This document shows, piece by piece, positions 3,275-13,668 of a DNA stretch of 23,128 nucleotides. Within the stretch, counting starts at the first letter, position 1. The number at the start of each line of letters is the position of its first letter. Made by a program: the position numbers and the translations under genes. Below the pieces are notes generated by a model that saw nothing but the letters and a program-made list of their open reading frames with translations, was not told the origin of the DNA and did no database searches. The DNA is from Saccoglossus kowalevskii (Eukaryota > Hemichordata > Enteropneusta > Harrimaniidae), in NCBI RefSeq assembly GCF_000003605.2, contig NW_003120440.1:5200-28327 (forward strand), written 5' to 3'.

Positions 3275-3288
3275 ACGTCACGTGACGT
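3275..3288. promoter_or_regulatory. Palindromic E-box/CRE element
   Basis: Perfect 14-base palindrome acgtcacgtgacgt. The core GTCACGTGAC is the extended E-box bound by bHLH-zip factors of the MITF/TFE and USF type, and the flanks are CRE-like TGACGT half sites. It lies about 530 bp past the stop codon. Binding is inferred from motif only. Confidence 0.4.
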
Positions 3289-3739
3289 TAGTCAAACTCA
3301 CTGGAAAGGAAAAAGAAAATAATTGTTTCGCCTATGAACCACACGGTAAATTTGGTCGGGTGCAGAATATTCTGGGCACAAGACGAAAACCGTACAAATT
3401 ACTTACAGTAAGCATTTTCTTTCTAAGCTGCGGTAATATTTACTATTAGACATAATGGGATTACAAATGCACATCATTAAGCATTACCAAAGACATCCAT
3501 CAGAGAATGTGACGGACGTATAAAAAAACTAACTTTCATTTGTTTACGTACACCACATTCCCACTGGGTGATTGCGGGTGCTACCCTGACAGACAGACCA
3601 AGAGACAGACAAACTGTAAACAATGTGAAAACAACGTCACAACTGCAAACACAAAACAACACGTTTAACATATATTGTTCTATTGGTTAAAGAGGATCAC
3701 GTGGATGACTGGGTCTTCATTGCGTAATTGGATGATGAA

Positions 3740-3751
3740 CGTCACGTGACG
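3740..3751. promoter_or_regulatory. Second palindromic E-box/CRE element
   Basis: Perfect 12-base palindrome cgtcacgtgacg, the same core as at 3275-3288, with another gtgacgtg at 3761-3768. It is about 67 bp past the stop codon, so it may be transcribed as 3' UTR or serve a neighbouring promoter. Confidence 0.4.
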
Positions 3752-3817
3752 CTATCGGATGTGACGTGAAATAGCAGAGACGTTCTGTCTTTCGTATCGT
3801 ACCTTGATTACCTAAAA

Positions 3818-3941
3818 TCAGCCTGCACGCTGTGCAACGGGACTTGATCGGATGGCTTGTCTAGCAGCGTCTCTGAGTCTGTCGGTGAGTATTTTATTCA
3901 GCATAGTGGAAAGCAATACTTCGCTGCCGTTCCTCTTCTGG
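3818..3941 (-). CDS. Coding exon 8 (P7): terminal PTH-like cassette and stop
   Basis: Acceptor aaatttgtatttag; the first base C completes GTC (Val), then QKR and a 37-residue peptide starting NGSEVLLSTMLNKILTDRLR, with D21-A22-A23-R24-Q25 and ending VAQRAG before TGA at 3820-3818. S3-E4, L7, L11, K13 and L15 all coincide with PTH (SE..L...L.K.L), making this the most PTH-like N terminus of the set. The peptide is shorter than P2-P6 and lacks the YGDF end. The final residue is Gly directly before the stop, which can serve as an amide donor without a basic site. A second AG three bases downstream (gccag) would break the frame, so tag|C is the acceptor. Confidence 0.85.
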
Positions 3942-6900
3942 CTAAATACAAATTTTACCAACATAAATAACGTATAGTTTGTAACACACAATGATGACAT
4001 AACTATATAAAAACAGTGACCTGGGGCCAAGTCAGGGTCAGCGTAAGATGCAAACAATAAACACACAAAGAGCATTCTACACTTTCGAAACATTAGAAAA
4101 ACTTAACCACCACGAATTGTAACATCACAGCGTACGAAGCAGATACGAAACAAACGTTTGTAGTCTCAACATTTATGTTGAAAAACAAATACCCATTGAA
4201 TGCAGCGTGCGGGGAATAGTACGTCACACAGAGTGTAGGCTTGGTAGTTGTGACGTAGACAGTAACGTGGTCTTACAACAAGGCAATATAAATCACCCAT
4301 GTTTTCGGGTGCGGCGTATGCATCGCCCCGTGATCATCTCTGTAAGTACATCGACGACGAGCATGAATCGGTTCCTCTTAGTTTAAACACTTGAGTTCGA
4401 TACATAATATCAACTTTACATACAATTCTGTTATTTTATGTTCCTTGGGTTATTAATAATTAATTATTTAATAATTATAATGTCAATTGTGCATTCTGCG
4501 AATAGATCTCCAGGACAATAATTTCGTGTTTTTGCTAAATAACTATTACTATTTGGGTGAAAGTCTAAATTATATTACCGAACGAAAACAAATCATATAA
4601 CACAGCGCCCGTAGTATCGAGAATTGGAAGATAATATCATGGATCGGCATTAGAACACACCATGCCAGAAGTTAATCCACGATCATCTGATAAGATTATA
4701 TAAAATGATCATTATATAGCAGTTGTTTGATTGTCCCGGGGAAACCAATGTGGTAACGTTTAAGTTTCTGTTTATTGTTACGAGGTGTAAGTAATACCAT
4801 CTCTTCAAAATAAAAAATGAAAAATTTGTTGAATCACGTTAAATTAGCATATATTGTCGCATAAAAAAGGGCGCAATAGAGTATGGTTACTCGAGATAGA
4901 CAGGGTTATTCGGCACGTTTCTAAAAATAAGATAATTGGGTCAGATATTGATAATACATTTTACTATCATCAATTTTCCACACCTTCCCAGCAATATTTC
5001 ACACTCTTCTACCCGTGCATCCATATGCTCGGACCTGTTTTTTGTGAATGACTTGCCTTAACTGTACAACCAACAGTTTTAGTAGATTCAATGAGCTTGT
5101 GACTACATATGATAGCACTATTAGACAGATGATTTGAAATGTTATCAATACCACTTGTCTGATGTAAAACCAATTGCTTATGACGAGTGATATATGGTGG
5201 GTGTCACGTGGAGCAGAATGTACTCTCCCTCTCTTCGAAACACTTGACACTAGTTCTTATTTGTATACCTCGAGGTCCATGTATGCATGGGTATCATGTT
5301 ATTTCCACTCATTCCGTTGATTGATTATTTTGAAACATTTCTATAGCTTTTATAAAATAAAACACGGATACCAGAAAACTTACACGTCGTTTTCACTTTT
5401 TTTGCCAACTTTGAAGTCGCCCTGTCGAGCCTGTAGAGCCAAGAGTGCTTCTCTGAAAGCCGCTCCCTGATCCCTCAAATATTGGTTCCGCATTGCCTCG
5501 TTCATAAATGCATCTGCAGTGACACGTTTTCTACAGAGAACAAATGAGACAACACATAGCCAGTAGCGTTAGCATTAGAATGACGAGATCACTTGTGATT
5601 CTCATATAATAACATCTGTCGTTCTACTGTCAGATTCGTAGATATAATGCACATGCCTTCGGAAATCATCTTAATTGGAGAACGGCGATCACTGATATGA
5701 GACATCCCATTGTGCCGAAAATATATTCACGACGAGAGAATTTTTTTATTTTATTCTTTGAAATAACACGAAAAAAAACACCTACTAAACGGGGTTTGCC
5801 TTTGGAGAGTTAGAGGGGAATGAACTGCATTTTCACTGATTTTGTAATAGTTTTGAATCCAAATAATACTGGTCCAAACTGACGTGCGTGGTTCCAAATG
5901 TGTAAACATAGTGTTTACACATTTGTAAACACTGCCTAAATGTCTTTCATCAAACGCTTATACATAACTTGAAGAAGAAGAATCAACAAACAAATAATTT
6001 GATTTGAAAAATTCAAGATTATTTACTATGAACGTTTTTTCATCAAATTAATCGATTTGTTTATATTAACGTCAAAGGTTTGATCAATGATGTGTCAAAT
6101 TAGTCATTCTTTCTACTTGCGTTTTCAAAGTAGTCAGAGTTTTGGGATCGTTTCCTGTGTTGGTACTTGTCTAACTTCGAAAGAGTGTCTTTGGTTTAGA
6201 AAAGTGCGCTTTGTTTTCAAGTTAGTATCAGTGTTGCAGCCGGGATGTTTGCCAACTGTCTAAACCTGCTATGTAATGTTCCTGGTGTCATTGTATGGAG
6301 ATTATCAACCAACCTGACGTTTAGGCCAACACTTGGTCACAGAGTTGGGCACACTGAACCATGAAATGTAGACGCGAGGAACTTTAAAATTAGAAAAGTT
6401 GAGATAACCAGCAATTTTTTAAAACATTTTTATTTTTAATTTAATGAGTTAGCTTTTCAGTTGAAATAAATGCATAAATTTTACATGTCATTTGAAAAAT
6501 AATTTAATACCATCATTTTATAATGTATTATAGTAAGTTTAACTTCATTTTTATTCATGTTTTGCCATTTAAAATAGCAAAATAATTTGATAGGCCAGAC
6601 AGTACACCACTACGTTATGCTATGATACACTATATTAGACTGAGAAAGTATTATAATAGGACAAGAACATTTAAAAAGATGTTTAAAAAAGTCCCATCTC
6701 CATAGTAATCTGTCACACCTCCTACGTGTTTTGTGTATATTTTGTTGACAACTTACACGAGAGTAATATGACCTGCAGAAGTGCTATATATTTAAAATTG
6801 TCTTCTGTGAGTTTTGAAATAACAATCAATCAAAACATTTTGCACTGAGCAGGAAAACATGTTTCGAAGGTAGTATTAAAGTTGTAACACTTTTGCATTG

Positions 6901-9900
6901 AATACTATCTATTGAACATCTTTTATTAAAATGTTAAAAACAACTTAGAGACACTTTATCCAAAGGACCATGAGCTTTCAAACGTCACTTCTAAATTAAA
7001 TTTCTAATTCACATTTTTATCACCAAGACATGAAACAGTTGAATTCAAGAAAATGCCGCCAAACCATTGATATGCTGTAGACTATGATGCAACCCGATTG
7101 ACGCCGTCATACTCACCCTGGTGTCCTGATGGTGAAGTCGCCGTACTTTCTTTGAAGCTTTTGTAACATTTCAATTAGTGCTTGTCCTTGTAACTTAGAC
7201 ATACTCTGTGACATTAATTGAGAGTTCAGTGCATCTGTCATTGTTCTCTTCCCCCTGTGACAAGATGTAATCGGGTGTTTCAATTTAAAGTAGGCGGTAA
7301 ATACAGACAAGAACACTGTTTTAACCACGAGTCTTTTGAGTTTTCAAGAAACATCAACCATGGATATATATTTTATACAGGCGATGTTAGAATCATTTTA
7401 TCAAATCTTAAAGGGGCCTGGAATTGGACACTCTGATAATTTGTTTTTCTAGTCACTTCAATTTATCACGTTAGTTTTCAAATTAAAACGCAGATTCGGG
7501 ACTCAAATCGCATTGCTCTGCCTGAATATCAAATCATGTAAATGATGTGCATACTTTGCTTTGTTGTTATGCAAAGAAAGGCAACAAAACTATATTTTAA
7601 AAACTGCAACTCATGACAGTGCTTTGGATCAAATAGATCTCGTACGACGTAAACAATTTCATATAGGTAACATTCCTTGCTGATCCAAATATAGATACAA
7701 GATGTCTACACATTATTTTCTTATGTGCGTCTCCCGAGAATATAAATATCTCTTCCGGTTTGTAGAAGTCTGCCAAGACATGACATTACACATGACATTC
7801 AACGGATTGTTCACCACGTGTGATGATGCATCAATGCTTAATAATATATCAATGACAGACCACTTATTCCGAGACATGAGGCTCGACATTGTAATGATAA
7901 ATGGAAGAGTGAAAATGGAGCAATATATATATATATAATTCTACGACCTACGTCCAAATCAACAATTTCCGTTTATAAGAAAAGCGATTGCTTTGCACTA
8001 AAACTAACAATGTTTCGGTACGTATACAGCCCGGAATGCCATTCCACTTTGTTTGTAATTTAACTCCTTTTCTTGGTCTGGAAATTGTTGGAACGGTAAT
8101 ATTTTGAATATTTCAACGGTTACACAACATATACACTCACTGCAATACAACGTGTACGTAAGTAACTGGAAACAAGGTGCTTATGTGTTTGCAATATGTG
8201 TCGTAATAGCAGTTAACATGGAAGTGAGCGAAACATTGTTAAAACATCCAGTTCGTGAAAGGTGAATAGGGTTGAGTGAGTAGCACCGAGGGTAGGGGTG
8301 ATTAGTTGAGATGCACACGCCATGTTGTGATACTGAGAAGAAAGATACATTGCCTGTGAGACGAACGTGAGTTAGTACTGGTACGAGTGATTAGAACACG
8401 ACGCAAGTGAACCCGGGATGTGAATACAATGCAGTGCGACGTAGTGCCATTGCAGTTGTGACCACGTGCGACCAGGTGCGTGTGTGTGTGTGTGCATCGA
8501 TAACCTTGGGTAGATAGGTTTTCTGATTCAGTCTTGCGATGTATCCACGGGGGCTGCTGTGCAGGAAGTGTATACGTGCACCAATCTTTAAACTCCGTCC
8601 ATACATGCTGTTGTAGGTGAAACATCTACGAGTATCCCAATATACACAAATATAAATATAATATAATATCATATGAATATAAAAATATAATACAGTATAC
8701 AAATCAAGAAAAAGGAAGAGAAGCATTTAGGCATTTTTAAAGAAAAAAACACGAAAGAAAAAACACCAGAAAAAAAACGGAAATAGAGAAAGCCACAATA
8801 AGAATAAATAAAAATCACCATGGTAATGCAGGATTCTATTTGCTGTTTATTGACATTTTGATTTCAATCTTGTTTAAATCAATCGCATGTTTAGAGGATA
8901 TGTGTACTAACTAAATCTACACGGATTGTTAAAAATGTCAAGCAAACTGATTTTTAAAGGGGTCAATTAAAGTAATAAACTGCCAATTAGAATCCATTCT
9001 TCAACATACAGGCTATGCTACTTACGCGCGATTTAACGTTAAGCGATACGTCGTCGCTACTGCATTGTCCTCGTCTCGGTCAGTGAGGTTTATCAATTCC
9101 GCCGAATGTTGGGCCTGTGGGGAATTTCTGGGAAGCAGATGAGGAATTATTGTTGCACACCTAATCCGAACATGCGGTATCGGTTTCAAATAGAATTGAG
9201 AAAAGCATGCATAATGACTATGCAAGGTAGTCGTGAAAAGTAATTTGAAAACGTGTAAGGAGGTTCGGACCGAATTGAAGAATATGTTTATTCTTCCAAC
9301 ATTGCGGATTCGTGCCATTAGGATACAGAAAACGGAAAAAAAATTTAGGTCACTAGACTTGTTCCGAAATGTCATGTTCATGTTATAGTTATTTTGCATT
9401 CGTTCCTATGTTAAAACTATTTTTTCAAGTCGAACAAGTCGAATATATTATTATTAATAATAGAAATCATAATTTCATAATTAAATTAATTTAGTAAGTT
9501 TCCAGTGTGATATTTTATTTTTATTCTTTACTGTGACGAACATATGTTCCTTAATATGTCCAGTGGTTTACAATTTAAATATCTCTGCTATAATTCATTG
9601 CCCATATGCTTAGTAACATGCTCAGTAGTTCAACATTTGAATTCGGCTCGAACTCCTTTAATTATTAGGAAATTGTGAATTTTTGCACAAAATCAATACT
9701 TGACTGAGCAAAAAAATAATATCCGTGCAAATAAAAAAAAGGCTAACCGTATTGTTTTACTTACAAAGGGATTATCTGGAAATCACCATATTTTTTCTGT
9801 ATGTCGAGTAAAAACTGGTGAAAAGCATCTCGCCGTTTAGATTTTGCCAGTTGTAATAGTTTTTCAGAGAGAATAGAATCCGCGACATTTCTTTTAAATC

Positions 9901-12900
9901 TGTGGACGCATGGTTTAGACATCAGTAGTAGGGAGGAGTAGCAAGAATAGGAGTATGGTAAAAACAATGCAATGGGAAGGGTTTGAGGTTGGTAGTAGTG
10001 TTATGGGGATGACATAGAAATAACATAAAACAAAACAAAAAATTCAAAATAATGACAACAAAAAATATACTAAATAGGTGTATTTGTGTCTACTTACTTA
10101 GTATGGGGCGTTATAGAAACACTTAAATTGTGTTGTTGTATGAATTCTAGTAGTTGTTGTCGCATGGCATCGTGTCCCATGCCTGACGCCAAATTGTTCA
10201 AAAGGGTAGCCAATTGGCTATCCGAAAGATTTCTCTTTCTTCTATATTGAATATTTAAAAAAGACATAATATAAAAAATAACAAAAAAACAATTGTGACG
10301 TTAAAAAATAGTACTGGAATGAATGAAAAAAATGAATATTACTGCAGACATTCTGACAAAAATATTATATAATCTACGAAAGGTAAAAAAAGTAAAAAAG
10401 ATCATCCTGCGAAAAAAGGATTGAAATTTAACATTGTTTTGTTAAAAGAAGAAAAAAGATACAACTTTCTTACAATGTGTTAGTACTGTTGAAACCCCCA
10501 ACTCACCGGCGATGAATACAGTGCAGTCGTAATGCGCATGTGCAAAAGATGGTATTATGCTGGTTAGTAAAACATGTAACTATGCTTTATACAAACTGTC
10601 TTGTACATTCAAGAGTTACGACCTTGTTAGTAATGGATACACTGTGCATATGAGGCACACAAAATAGAATATATATAATGAGTTTGAAGGAATAGTGGAG
10701 ATGATGATGTAAATGAGACAACCAGACACCAAGACCACTACTAACTATACAGTAATCTCCAAGAACGTGTGACTTGACGTCCATTTCCCATTCGTAACTT
10801 ACTCTTCGGTAACCGTATCCACGTTGTAGCTGACTATTGTATTTATCATGTTGTCATATGTTTGGGTCTTACTGGAGCCGCGAAATGGCACAACAGGGTG
10901 TGCATTTTTCTTCCTCCTCCTGTCGATTGAATATTATCTGTATATCAGTTAGTCAATATAAGAATTATCTTCTTTATTACATACACGTCACGAAGAGCTT
11001 GCGCATTAATACTGAGACAGGATCACGGTATATACTTTCTTTACGACATCTGATACGTAACTGATACCAATGTGAACCAAGCAAAAACATGGCCTAGTCA
11101 AATAACGAAGACAAACTGTTTTTCTAAGTCAATGGTGATGTCTATGGTAGGCATCACAAGACGTAAATGCCTTTTTTTAAATTTCACAATATAGTTATTC
11201 AAGGTACAGAGGCCACCTGCTTTTGTTTAAAAATTAAGTACAAACAGATAGTATATTGACTTGTTCGAAATATGTACAGTGAGGTCACACCACAAATTAT
11301 AGACTAATTACTGCAATTTCTTTATTGAATAAAACACGCATTTCGAAATTCGTACAATTAGGGATGCACTGTTTGAGCTCATAAAGTATAGTAATTTATC
11401 TCTTGTGGTTAGTTTAAGTAAACAAAAAACGAAGGTATATTGATATGGTAGACATACCAGACAGAAATGAAATTCATCTTCAGCTTGGTTACCGACATGA
11501 AAGTCATGCCATTACTTCGATTATCAGTTTTAATTTTTCAAATTGTGTGCCGATATTCTAAATTGTCTTAACCATGCAGCCATTGACACATTGTCAAATA
11601 ACTGTAAGATACTTCTTCTGCCCAAATGTAAAGTTTAATTTATTATACGTTGAAAGCTTAGGTGATTGGTTCAAATTGTTTAGCCATTCATGAATATTGA
11701 TATTCACAAAGTAAAATGAAATAATTGAACCTTATCCAGGCCTTGACCCCTCTACAGTCCTAGCTGTATCCACTCAATCGCAAAAGGTATATTGAATAAA
11801 TCGGCATACAATCGTTTGCTTATTCACTTACACTGGGCCCTGGTCACGTAGGGTATGAGTTGTACTTTCTAGTAATAGCTTACTAAACCATCTCAAGAAA
11901 GCTGCATTGCTATTATGAACACGTTGTTGTTCAAGGTATGTTCCCATAGCAGCATCGGCTGTATTGCGCTTACTTCTGTGAAACAAAGCTGTGAATTATT
12001 TCTGCCAAAATATATCAATATGTCATATAGCCTTTGACCTTTAGTCATTACCACCCTGTATTAACCTGTTCACCACCAGTTCCATCTTTTCATCACAAAT
12101 TAACAAAAAAGTCCCATTTATAGCCTGGGACAAACATATTAAAATTGTTTGATTAGAAACTGAAAATCAAATCAAATTGTGTCTGTTGGCTTCAAATTAG
12201 GGTTCATTTCCAGAAATATTGAAGAATATAAGAAAAAAAGGAGCAGAACAATTTGGGATGAAAAGGTTAAGATGAAACATCATTCGGCTCCACAGTGTTT
12301 AGATTTGGTATTATTAGCATACATCGTCAGAATATAGTACAGGCTGTTCTATGGGCTGTGGGATATTCCCCATAACTCCCTGATTAATCCAACCTTTCCA
12401 GGATCTCAACATTAGACTTATTTTCACGTTCCTCAAGCATTGACACTGCGACTACTTGCACGTGCCGAGTGAACTTTAATAATTTATTTTCTTTCAGTAC
12501 ATTTTGCAACCAATTTAGTTACGCTTTGTCATCAACTTGAGTGTGGAGAATGGATGCCATTGAGGTATCTGCTAGGTTGCGCCTTACTCTGTAGAAAGAA
12601 CATACTGTAAATGTGGTGTGACCTGGTCACACACTGCGACCTCACTACGCTCCCGGGCAAGTGAGACCATCCATGCACTTTCCCACTACCATTTCACTCT
12701 TGGGAAATCATACAGTTGAGCGCCCATATTACTGTACAAAAGATTGAATTCATTCACAGGAACATTGTGTGGATGTAAGATTATGTATGACGTCACATAT
12801 GTTTATTACAAACTCGTGATGTAACGCTCCTTATACATTGTAACAACCTCTGCAATGTAATTTGATAGTATGTGTCAATTTCTACAGCTCTGCCACCTCG

Positions 12901-13668
12901 CTGTTGAAAAAAACCAAATACATTTCCGGCTTCCCATTTACAGTAACTTGATTCTGCAACACAAGTGATTATAATACATAATAACATGTACCCCATTATG
13001 TTGGGATGCATTCCGAGTTCATTCATACTAACGTATAAGGTATAAGGCAATGTTCGCACTCCATTCGAATAGAAAACTTGTATAAAAATATATATAATAT
13101 ACATATTCATAAATACATATACATAGATGCGTTTCGTATACACTCCAGCAGCTAATTACACACTGTAAAATACCATAGTATAGATTGATGTCTCAAACGT
13201 TATTTGGTTAAATTGACTTTTGAGTCAGCAGAGTTCATCTGAATTTGCCTTCATGAAAATATATGAATATAAAGCACAGACTTCTAAATACCATGCGTGG
13301 AAATACGAGGGTGTGTTGTCAGAGAAGCTGCGTTTTAGATAGCAAGCTCACCATAAGAGACGTAATGTTTAGTGTAAATGTTGTAAAATAACTAATGTAT
13401 CTTCAAATGACAATCGCTATCGTAATATTTAACAAGCACATGTCGTGTTCACCTGTATAATGATTCGGTGTAAAAGTACAGTTAGATTAATGCATCTGAG
13501 AGAGTTCAACAAGACTAGCAAAATAAAACATGTATAACTTCACTACACCGACTAATTATCAGTATAATTATCAGGAAGGAGGTATACTTACATTGGTGCC
13601 CCATAGCTTTGTTTAACCGCTACCACAACCATTACAAAGACTGCTACAAGTATTGTTTTGTTCATCAT
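3818..13668 (-). CDS. Multi-copy PTH/TIP39-like secreted peptide hormone precursor (8 coding exons)
   Basis: Seen: join on the minus strand of 13668-13592, 12588-12523, 11975-11832, 10241-10098, 9899-9765, 7254-7117, 5530-5384 and 3941-3818, giving 975 nt, 324 residues and a TGA stop. All seven introns are GT-AG and phase 2. Donors are gtaagt (five), gtgagt (one) and a weaker gtaact after exon 2. The product has a signal peptide and then seven peptides, each preceded by a basic cleavage site; three end in GKR or GKK amidation signals. Family knowledge: spacing of acidic 4, Leu 7, Leu 11, aromatic 23, hydrophobic 24 and 27/28 is that of PTH, PTHrP and TIP39, which bind class B1 receptors. Inference: a neuroendocrine precursor processed by prohormone convertases and amidating enzymes. 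Alternatives are a PDF/cerebrin-like or glucagon-like precursor. The exon structure is firm; the family name is less so. Skipping exon 2 would give 302 residues in frame. Confidence 0.87.
3942..5383 (-). other. Intron between coding exons 7 and 8 (1442 bp)
   Basis: Phase 2, gtaagt to gtatttag. It contains 9-bp inverted CRE-like half sites at 4220-4228 (tacgtcaca) and 4249-4257 (tgtgacgta), and an AT-only stretch near 4,450-4,480. The open frames at 4854-5051 (plus) and 4999-5250 (minus) have no recognisable content. Confidence 0.65.
5384..5530 (-). CDS. Coding exon 7 (P6): PTH-like amidated peptide cassette
   Basis: Acceptor ttgttctctgtag, donor gtaagt, 147 nt, phase 2-2. The first base completes the amidating Gly of P5, and AAA CGT gives KR. 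The peptide is 39 residues: start VTADAFMNEAMRNQYLRDQG, then A21-A22-F23-R24, L27-L28, L30-Q31, G35-D36-F37, end KV. It is followed by GKK, an amidation and cleavage signal, so Val-amide is predicted. A linker SENDV then leads to the QKR of exon 8. By my count it shares 13 of 39 positions with P5, including the run Q19-G20 and the G-D-F end. The ADAF start resembles the N terminus of GHRH-like peptides as well, but the spacing to F23 fits PTH numbering directly. Confidence 0.88.
5531..7116 (-). other. Intron between coding exons 6 and 7 (1586 bp)
   Basis: Phase 2, gtgagt to ctctgtag. AT-rich and without a cassette. It contains a perfect 14-bp-arm hairpin at 5895-5925 made of forkhead-like motifs (listed separately). 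Confidence 0.7.
5895..5925. repeat. Perfect hairpin of forkhead-like motifs
   Basis: Arms at 5895-5908 (caaatgtgtaaaca) and 5912-5925 (tgtttacacatttg) are perfect complements around the 3-base loop tag. Each arm holds GTAAACA/TGTTTAC, the forkhead factor core, and a third tgtaaaca follows at 5924-5931. Confidence 0.6.
7117..7254 (-). CDS. Coding exon 6 (P5): PTH-like amidated peptide cassette
   Basis: Acceptor cttgtcacag, donor gtgagt, 138 nt, phase 2-2. Encodes GKR, which amidates and releases P4, then a 42-residue peptide starting TMTDALNSQLMSQSMSKLQG, with A22-L23, L27, L30-Q31, K33-Y34-G35-D36-F37 and end IRTP. The next codon is GG+A (Gly) across the intron, then KR in exon 7, so the predicted C terminus is Pro-amide. 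Position 1 is Thr rather than Asn, and position 23 is Leu rather than aromatic. By my count P4 and P5 share 12 of 42 positions without gaps. Confidence 0.88.
7922..7936. repeat. (TA)n microsatellite
   Basis: Alternating AT tract in the intron between coding exons 5 and 6. Confidence 0.85.
8478..8494. repeat. (GT)n microsatellite
   Basis: gtgtgtgtgtgtgtgtg tract. It generates His/Thr-rich false reading frames on the other strand. Confidence 0.85.
9765..9899 (-). CDS. Coding exon 5 (P4): PTH-like amidated peptide cassette
   Basis: Acceptor catgcgtccacag, donor gtaagt, 135 nt, phase 2-2. Encodes FKR, then a 42-residue peptide starting NVADSILSEKLLQLAKSKRR, with D21-A22-F23, F26-L27-L28, K33-Y34-G35-D36-F37 and end QIIPL. 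The Leu codon is TT+G across the junction, and exon 6 supplies GKR, so the mature peptide should end in Leu-amide. R19-R20 sits where PTHrP has an Arg run; K18-R19-R20 could be cut but may instead be a receptor-contacting basic patch, as in the vertebrate hormones. It shares the C-terminal KYGDF with P5. Confidence 0.88.
9900..10097 (-). other. Intron between coding exons 4 and 5 (198 bp)
   Basis: Phase 2, gtaagt to gtccacag. Much shorter than the other introns of the gene. It is close to the minimum needed if these two cassettes are always spliced together. Confidence 0.75.
10098..10241 (-). CDS. Coding exon 4 (P3): PTH-like peptide cassette
   Basis: Acceptor attcaatatag, donor gtaagt, 144 nt, phase 2-2. 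Encodes RKR, then a 44-residue stretch starting NLSDSQLATLLNNLASGMGH, continuing with D21-A22-M23, R24-Q25-Q26-L27-L28-E29-F30 and ending ITPHT. The split codon AA+A is Lys, and exon 5 continues FKR, so the C-terminal processing site is K-F-K-R. This fits a furin or convertase type site, and no amidating Gly is present. The tail is rich in Gln, His and Ser and lacks the YGDF motif of P4 and P5. The acceptor has a poor pyrimidine tract, but frame, phase and the downstream cassette make the exon secure. Confidence 0.85.
10242..11831 (-). other. Intron between coding exons 3 and 4 (1590 bp)
   Basis: Phase 2, gtaagt to caatatag. AT-rich, with A-runs near 10,260-10,460. Open frames inside it (10587-10784 minus, 10837-11064 plus) show no signal peptide, basic cassette or known domain. 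Confidence 0.7.
11832..11975 (-). CDS. Coding exon 3 (P2): PTH-like peptide cassette
   Basis: Acceptor tttgtttcacag, donor gtaagt, 144 nt, phase 2 at both ends. Encodes SKR, then a 45-residue peptide starting NTADAAMGTYLEQQ, with N20-A21-A22-F23-L24 and W26-F27 on the hydrophobic helix face, and ending LRDQGPV. The last Val is completed by the first base of exon 4, and RKR follows at once. There is no Gly before the basic site, so no amide is expected. The TADAAM start recalls the ADDAAF stretch of TIP39, and F23-L24 matches PTHrP. Family likeness is inferred from register, not from high identity. Only the basic sites at the two ends flank the peptide. Confidence 0.86.
11976..12522 (-). other. 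Intron between coding exons 2 and 3 (547 bp), holding a lost half-cassette
   Basis: Starts gtaact and ends tttcacag if the short form of exon 2 is used. Its first part (about 12518-12480) still reads LNWLQNVLKENK in the exon frame, matching positions 21-32 of the peptide family. The frame stays open for several tens of codons, but I see no gtaagt-like donor in phase 2 at the length expected of a full cassette. Confidence 0.6.
12523..12588 (-). CDS. Coding exon 2 (P1): short cassette, or a decaying one
   Basis: After acceptor ttctttctacag the exon supplies one base (completing ATA, Ile), then VRR and NLADTSMASILHTQVDDK, then two bases (GC). Those complete Ala with the first base of exon 3, giving DDKA-SKR. 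The peptide matches the first half of its siblings: N1, A3-D4, M7, L11. The exon is 66 nt against 135-147 for the other internal cassettes. It ends at gtaact, a weak donor (C at -1, C at +5) but in the right phase. Read without splicing, the frame meets TAA at 12521-12519, inside that donor. Beyond the stop the same frame reads LNWLQNVLKENK, matching the missing second half. So this is either a shortened exon giving a 19-residue peptide, or a pseudo-exon that is skipped; skipping keeps frame. Confidence 0.6.
12589..13591 (-). other. Intron between coding exons 1 and 2 (1003 bp)
   Basis: Phase 2, gtaagt to ctttctacag. AT-rich. An open frame at 12793-13143 on the minus strand has no recognisable domain and a low-complexity Tyr/Ile/Met start produced by TA-rich DNA, so I do not call it a gene. 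No extra cassette (basic site plus AD motif) is seen. Confidence 0.7.
13592..13668 (-). CDS. Coding exon 1: signal peptide and start of pro segment
   Basis: Encodes MMNKTILVAVFV followed by MVVVAVKQSYGAP, then two bases (AT) of a split codon before donor gtaagt. Two adjacent ATGs are present; the first is taken as start, and using the second costs one residue. Lys 4 followed by a long Ile/Val/Ala/Met core and a polar QSYG end is a classic secretory signal, with likely cleavage after Gly 23. After joining to the next exon, only API-VRR stands between the cleavage site and the first peptide. That is a six-residue pro segment ending in two basic residues, the same length as the pro hexapeptide of vertebrate PTH. 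The exon continues upstream as a 13-base 5' UTR to an acceptor. Confidence 0.88.

Follow-up and report, generated by a model that had tools for sequence, protein, structure and literature searches.

In the hemichordate Saccoglossus kowalevskii, a window of 23,128 nucleotides on contig C1311 (28,327 bases) carries on its minus strand, from 13668 to 3818, a signal-peptide exon and, after it, seven exons for homologous peptides plus one exon unlike them. Judged from its sequence, the gene probably encodes a secreted prohormone that carries a number of divergent secretin/glucagon/PTH-superfamily peptides, each on its own exon. It is best read as the gene, in an ambulacrarian, of a ligand for receptors of the PTH/glucagon/PACAP group, the pairing with a receptor being a prediction. 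Coordinates are window positions unless a contig is named, and the parts of the gene are as follows.

13592..13668, minus strand: coding part of exon 1, signal peptide MMNKTILVAVFVMVVVAVKQSYGAP, with a phase 2 end before GTAAGTAT.
12523..12588 (elsewhere 12588-12471), minus strand: cassette 1 (c1), RRNLADTSMASILHTQVDDKA and then an in-frame TAA.
11832..11975, minus strand: cassette 2 (c2) exon, SKR-NTADAAMG..., 144 bp, phase 2-2.
10803..10919, minus strand: extra exon, RRKK-NAHPVVPFRG..., 117 bp, phase 2-2, unlike the cassettes.
10098..10241, minus strand: cassette 3 (c3) exon, RKR-NLSDSQLA..., 144 bp, phase 2-2.
9765..9899, minus strand: cassette 4 (c4) exon, FKR-NVADSILS...GDFQIIPL.
7117..7254, minus strand: cassette 5 (c5) exon, GKR-TMTDALNS...GDFTIRTP.
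5384..5530, minus strand: cassette 6 (c6) exon, KR-VTADAFMN...GDFKV-GKK.
3818..3941, minus strand: cassette 7 (c7), last coding exon, QKR-NGSEVLLS..., acceptor TTTGTATTTAG, stop TGA.

The cassettes are clearly related to one another. Aligned without gaps over 34 residues, c1-c7 score as a set 14.6 standard deviations above 3000 shuffled sets, even the best of which falls far short. Shuffle tests of single cassettes against the others of c2-c6 give p <= 0.00025 each, and c5 and c7 reach p <= 0.0001 against the other core cassettes. In the window translated in six frames, leave-one-out hidden Markov models pick up c2 (E 0.0013), c3 (1.5e-5), c4 (2.3e-7) and c6 (4.2e-5); in the same scan c5 and c7 are missed, and c1 is found by its N part alone (E 4.6). 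Residues 1-5 of the cassettes read x-x-[A/S/T]-[D/E]-[A/S/T/V]. Ala22, part of the common pattern first proposed, is invariant in all six of c2-c7, and c1 has Asn there. A genome search for close cassette paralogues led back to this contig alone, at a low sensitivity, the c4 query missing even its neighbours c3 and c5.

A KR or similar basic site stands ahead of every peptide and lies directly at the splice acceptor in every cassette exon and in the extra exon; c2-c6 and the extra exon all have lengths divisible by three and begin and end in phase 2, and the donors of the intact internal exons are GTAAGT, except for GTGAGT in c5. Joined without c1 and without the extra exon, the coding parts form an open precursor of 302 residues, and all 64 combinations drawn from the six middle exons (c2, the extra exon and c3-c6) keep the frame. 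A pattern-based exon scan, its pattern drawn up only after the cassettes had been seen, returned ten rows on the minus strand, corresponding to six distinct exons (c2-c6 and 10919-10803), and none on the plus strand, against a mean of 0.07 rows per strand and a maximum of one in 60 dinucleotide shuffles. The initial annotation had overlooked the exon at 10919-10803, which shares the splice phase and the basic start of the others. It has no cassette similarity (z -0.90), and may be a spacer or a separate, unrelated peptide.

The number of peptides has to be corrected as well. A signal peptide followed by seven homologous, ungapped cassettes behind basic sites was rightly recognised at the outset, but the cassettes are intact in six of seven cases, because residue 20 of c1 is an in-frame TAA and no donor stands in the usual place; the acceptor of c1 is present. 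Ahead of the stop c1 resembles the other cassettes (p 0.0001). Beyond it the likeness is p 0.32 to the other cassettes and p 0.026 to secretin peptides. A weak GTAACT donor just ahead of the stop would keep phase 2 and leave c1 as a short in-frame exon. The interruption may represent decay, a short peptide or exon, or an assembly error.

For the placement of the family, a profile of the seven cassettes was compared with 28 reference peptides, entered by hand; ten of these were checked in Pfam, and all ten came out as named. With the register fixed at +1, comparison of the seven cassettes with nine secretin/glucagon peptides gives z 7.83, and 5.94 in shuffles that keep the hydrophobic pattern, while the other eight registers give at most 3.7 (at most 2.7 with the pattern kept). 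Each of the seven cassettes is similar to the secretin set at p < 0.02. Without c1 the values are z 6.64 for the whole, 5.6 for the N part and 4.5 for the C part, with 0/600 shuffles reaching any of them. Taken singly, the nine peptides score z 1.5-2.8 in shuffles that keep the hydrophobic pattern. When the register is left free among nine, eight of the nine peptides of the secretin/glucagon branch pick +1 (seven of them with z 2.4-3.9, GIP with 1.7) and GLP-1 picks +4 (z 2.6), counts that are not independent, since the reference peptides are themselves interrelated. In the same search PTH picks register 0 (z 2.1), and PTHrP, TIP39, CRH, two urocortins, DH44, DH31, CGRP and PDF all stay below z 1, as do nine control peptides.

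The PTH/PTHrP/TIP39 set, used to gauge the PTH residue pattern (S3-E4, L7, L11, L15, W23-L24, L28), reaches z 4.63 in register 0, 3.23 with the hydrophobic pattern kept and 3.63 without c1. Scored alone in this register without c1, PTH gives z 3.4, PTHrP 2.7 and TIP39, which was placed by hand, 1.9. The CRF set has no distinct register (z <= 2.6, or <= 2.7 with the hydrophobic pattern kept), and PDF, represented by one Drosophila peptide, scores z -0.55. These comparisons support placing the cassettes among the secretin-type (class B1) ligands, nearer to glucagon and secretin than to PTH and TIP39. The initial annotation had read the gene as a PTH/TIP39-like precursor; its superfamily stands, but PTH/TIP39 is not the best match (z 4.6 vs 7.8 for secretin/glucagon). 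PDF, its declared alternative, gains no support, with the negative score above, and neither does CRH, which stays below z 1 and has no distinct register.

A plausible partner exists in the same genome. Profile searches of the genome (572 Mb) gave 76 matches to PF00002 and six to PF02793, on contigs C1169, C4305, C2503 (two), C1001 and C593; those on C4305, C593 and several others look adhesion-type, judged by eye from their exons. The receptor on C1169, its exons joined by hand and the product scored against PDB chains, is most similar to PTH1R (271 bits), PTH2R (245), the secretin receptor (227) and chain 5vai_R (219), followed by the calcitonin receptor (216), GLP1R (206), VIPR1 (204), the glucagon receptor (198), the GHRH receptor (194) and PAC1 (193). 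Chain 5vai_R bears the PDB label 'uncharacterized protein' and is presumably rabbit GLP1R. A version with fewer exons did not rank the receptors clearly, with 101 bits for 5vai_R, 96 for PTH2R and 92 each for GLP1R and PTH1R. In the alignments of this version the first extracellular loop roughly equals that of PTH2R in length and is longer than that of GLP1R. A query with the second and third transmembrane segments of C1169 revealed no close paralogue in the genome, the next matches being C2503:75469 (53%, one exon) and C2503:97181 (37%).

The class B1 receptors at these two C2503 loci are of calcitonin type (131 bits) and CRF type (226 bits); the former lies on the plus and the latter on the minus strand, within ∼35 kb of each other in C2503:66500-104400, a region with a gap inside. 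The receptor on C1001 (C1001:204000-218900) matches many class B1 receptors weakly, the glucagon receptor best (110 bits); a PDF-receptor-like identity would be a guess. Contigs C1303 and C3325 each carry a cluster of several 7tm_2 matches, perhaps tandem receptor genes of adhesion type. On sequence grounds C1169 is the one clear candidate found for the PTH/glucagon/PACAP group, and split exons may hide others. Since this candidate is closest to PTH1R, the label 'PTH-like' may yet prove apt on the receptor side.

Several points weigh against the placement and the pairing. The reference peptides, entered by hand, are few and mutually related. The PTH fit has no sharp peak (register +3, z 3.6; register -1, z 3.5), and the alignments score close to zero in absolute terms, the signal being one of register and set. 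Pfam finds no hormone model in c2-c7 or the joined precursor, only unrelated matches below the cut-offs, and a PDB search with the cassette profile finds no hormone, only unrelated chains (best E 0.031). In the genome PF01279 has no match at E <= 10, a result that does not show absence, and PF00123 has three sub-threshold matches, all on other contigs. The C1001 receptor could be the peptides' partner, and the interruption of c1 keeps gene decay in play as a slight possibility. PF01279 and PF14980, the TIP39 model, have no match to the cassettes either. The sole CRF-family match to PF00473 in the genome (C1238:6270-6362, minus strand), possibly a CRH gene, scores 19.3 bits and falls below the cut-off; the Pfam hormone models therefore seem weak here, as this model misses its cut-off although a CRF-type receptor is present.

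The precursor would be processed at its basic and amidation sites. When c4 is joined to c5 the junction reads ...IIPL-GKR, an amidation site formed across the splice junction; c5 joined to c6 gives P-GKR in the same way, and c6 has an internal site, V-GKK. Because c5 ends in the GG of a split codon, Gly comes next whichever exon follows, whereas amidation of c4 depends on the next exon, which must supply the Gly. An AlphaFold model of c4, built from an alignment of six sequences, has a helix at residues 3-34 and a loose coil tail, with a mean predicted local distance difference test (pLDDT) of 77.4 and a predicted template modelling score (pTM) of 0.37. In the mechanism envisaged, prohormone convertases would cut the precursor at the basic sites and release peptides of 37-46 residues, which would form a helix like the one modelled for c4. 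The peptides would then dock into a C1169-type receptor with the x-x-[A/S/T]-[D/E]-[A/S/T/V] N-terminal end in the transmembrane core, and exon choice may set which peptides are released, amidated or not. A tentative extension is that the gene is a little-changed ambulacrarian form of an undivided PTH/glucagon/PACAP-group ligand, with a glucagon-like core, a PTH-like extra N-terminal residue and one receptor, and with freely exchangeable one-peptide exons from which splicing sets both the peptide and its amidation.

The gene might also correspond, on the deuterostome side, to the iPTH/QSGamide/PXXXamide peptides of protostomes, a rather doubtful proposal that is compatible with a multi-peptide gene of the secretin/glucagon/PTH superfamily. 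These peptides activate PTHR orthologues in a beetle. The beetle ligand of the PTH receptor has < 12% identity to human PTH, PTHrP and TIP39 (PMC7224569). The proposal is favoured by long amidated peptides after KR, by the N-terminal SD conserved in iPTH (PMC7224569), by an oyster gene of the iPTH/QSGamide family that yields several peptides via differential splicing (PMC8398477), and by the receptor group, which is the same (PMC8557429). The motifs agree poorly: S-D at positions 3-4 occurs in c3 only, and none of the three amidated cassettes (c4-c6) has Pro at -4.

A narrower form of the preferred explanation, not exclusive of it, is that the gene is a true PTH/TIP39 orthologue, a copy-expanded member of the chordate PTH family proper. 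The register 0 score of the PTH set (z 4.63), that of PTH alone over the N part without c1 (z 3.9), the resemblance of NGSEVLLSTML in c7 to SVSEIQLMHNL in PTH and the closeness of the C1169 receptor to PTH1R are consistent with orthology. It is nevertheless unlikely, given the better fit of the glucagon/secretin peptides, the weaker TIP39 and PTHrP, the lack of a match to PF01279 and the TIP39 model, and the amidation sites in three cassettes. PTH is not known to have such a site.

It is improbable that the gene encodes another kind of multi-peptide precursor (one for amphipathic defence peptides, or of PDF, CRH or calcitonin type) whose likeness to the superfamily is one of helical composition only. 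The absolute similarity is weak, the helices are amphipathic and the C1001 receptor of class B1 is unassigned, but the register signal holds in shuffles that keep the hydrophobic pattern (z 5.94), and PDF, CRH, urocortins, DH44, DH31, CGRP, LL-37, an apoA-I helix and a leucine zipper all stay below z 1. A decaying gene, with the c1 stop as the earliest in a series of losses at a locus no longer used, would account for the TAA and the lost donor but is very improbable beside open remaining cassettes, strong donors on the internal ones and a frame kept at every junction.

Elsewhere in the window, a palindromic ACGTCACGTGACG motif occurs in two copies downstream of the last exon (∼3275-3288 and 3739-3752), the repeats comprise five short arrays of low complexity and a single weak inverted pair, and an Rfam scan at gathering thresholds gave no match. 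Outside it, the mitochondrial contig of the genome (17,037 bp) has COX1, located by Pfam, on the opposite strand and, with genes assigned from the open frames, ND2 ahead of ND1; its tRNA-Lys anticodon is TTT, and COX1 contains a single AAA codon, at a Lys position regarded as conserved. An inverted COX1, a transposed ND1 or ND2, the Lys anticodon UUU and AAA read as Lys are described for Saccoglossus kowalevskii, and the Lys anticodon CUU for Balanoglossus, echinoderms and Rhabdopleura (PMC3121625). The mitochondrial features are thus consistent with an acorn worm of or near Saccoglossus.

Glucagon genes have several related peptides per precursor. The glucagon/secretin/PACAP (Hormone_2) family is alike in this respect and in its register-specific similarity in both halves, its x-[S/A]-[D/E]-[A/G]-like start and its helix. 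The present cassettes differ in being one N-terminal residue longer than the H-S-D-G type of start, in their longer tail (GDF in c4-c6), in having no Pfam match and in numbering six intact copies. PTH, PTHrP and TIP39 share a less distinct register 0 similarity and S/A/T-E/D at positions 3-4, and the extra N-terminal residue is like the S-V-S-E of PTH, but their sequence fit is weaker, and amidation sites in three cassettes and many peptides per gene set the Saccoglossus precursor apart. With the iPTH/QSGamide/PXXXamide group, compared by description rather than alignment and from the available parts of the papers, it shares a long amidated peptide after KR, an acidic N-terminal motif and the receptor group, though the motif positions differ. 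The amphioxus PACAP/GCG-like precursor, likewise compared by description from the available part of its paper, is another single invertebrate deuterostome gene with several peptides of low identity to the vertebrate hormones, but it has three, of 32-33 residues (PMC7251081).

In what is accessible of that paper, PACAP was sought in hemichordate and echinoderm data and was not found (PMC7251081). The accessible part of a paper on the Saccoglossus nervous system names vasotocin, orexin, GnRH, CRH, TRH and calcitonin among others, with no PTH- or glucagon-type ligand among those named there (PMC10508912). A literature search on hemichordates and echinoderms, from partly available sources and with the starfish, ophiuroid and crinoid neuropeptide papers and supplements outside its scope, found no PTH-type peptide, and the gene may already have been predicted under a different name. 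With candidates for both the ligand gene and the receptor in a single ambulacrarian genome, the pair would be open to direct assay; such a pair could reveal how the hormones of the glucagon and PTH types diverged, and would make their origin testable. Precursors of this kind are known, and it is the combination that looks new in the literature searched: an ambulacrarian gene with six intact, diverged cassettes on freely combinable one-peptide exons.

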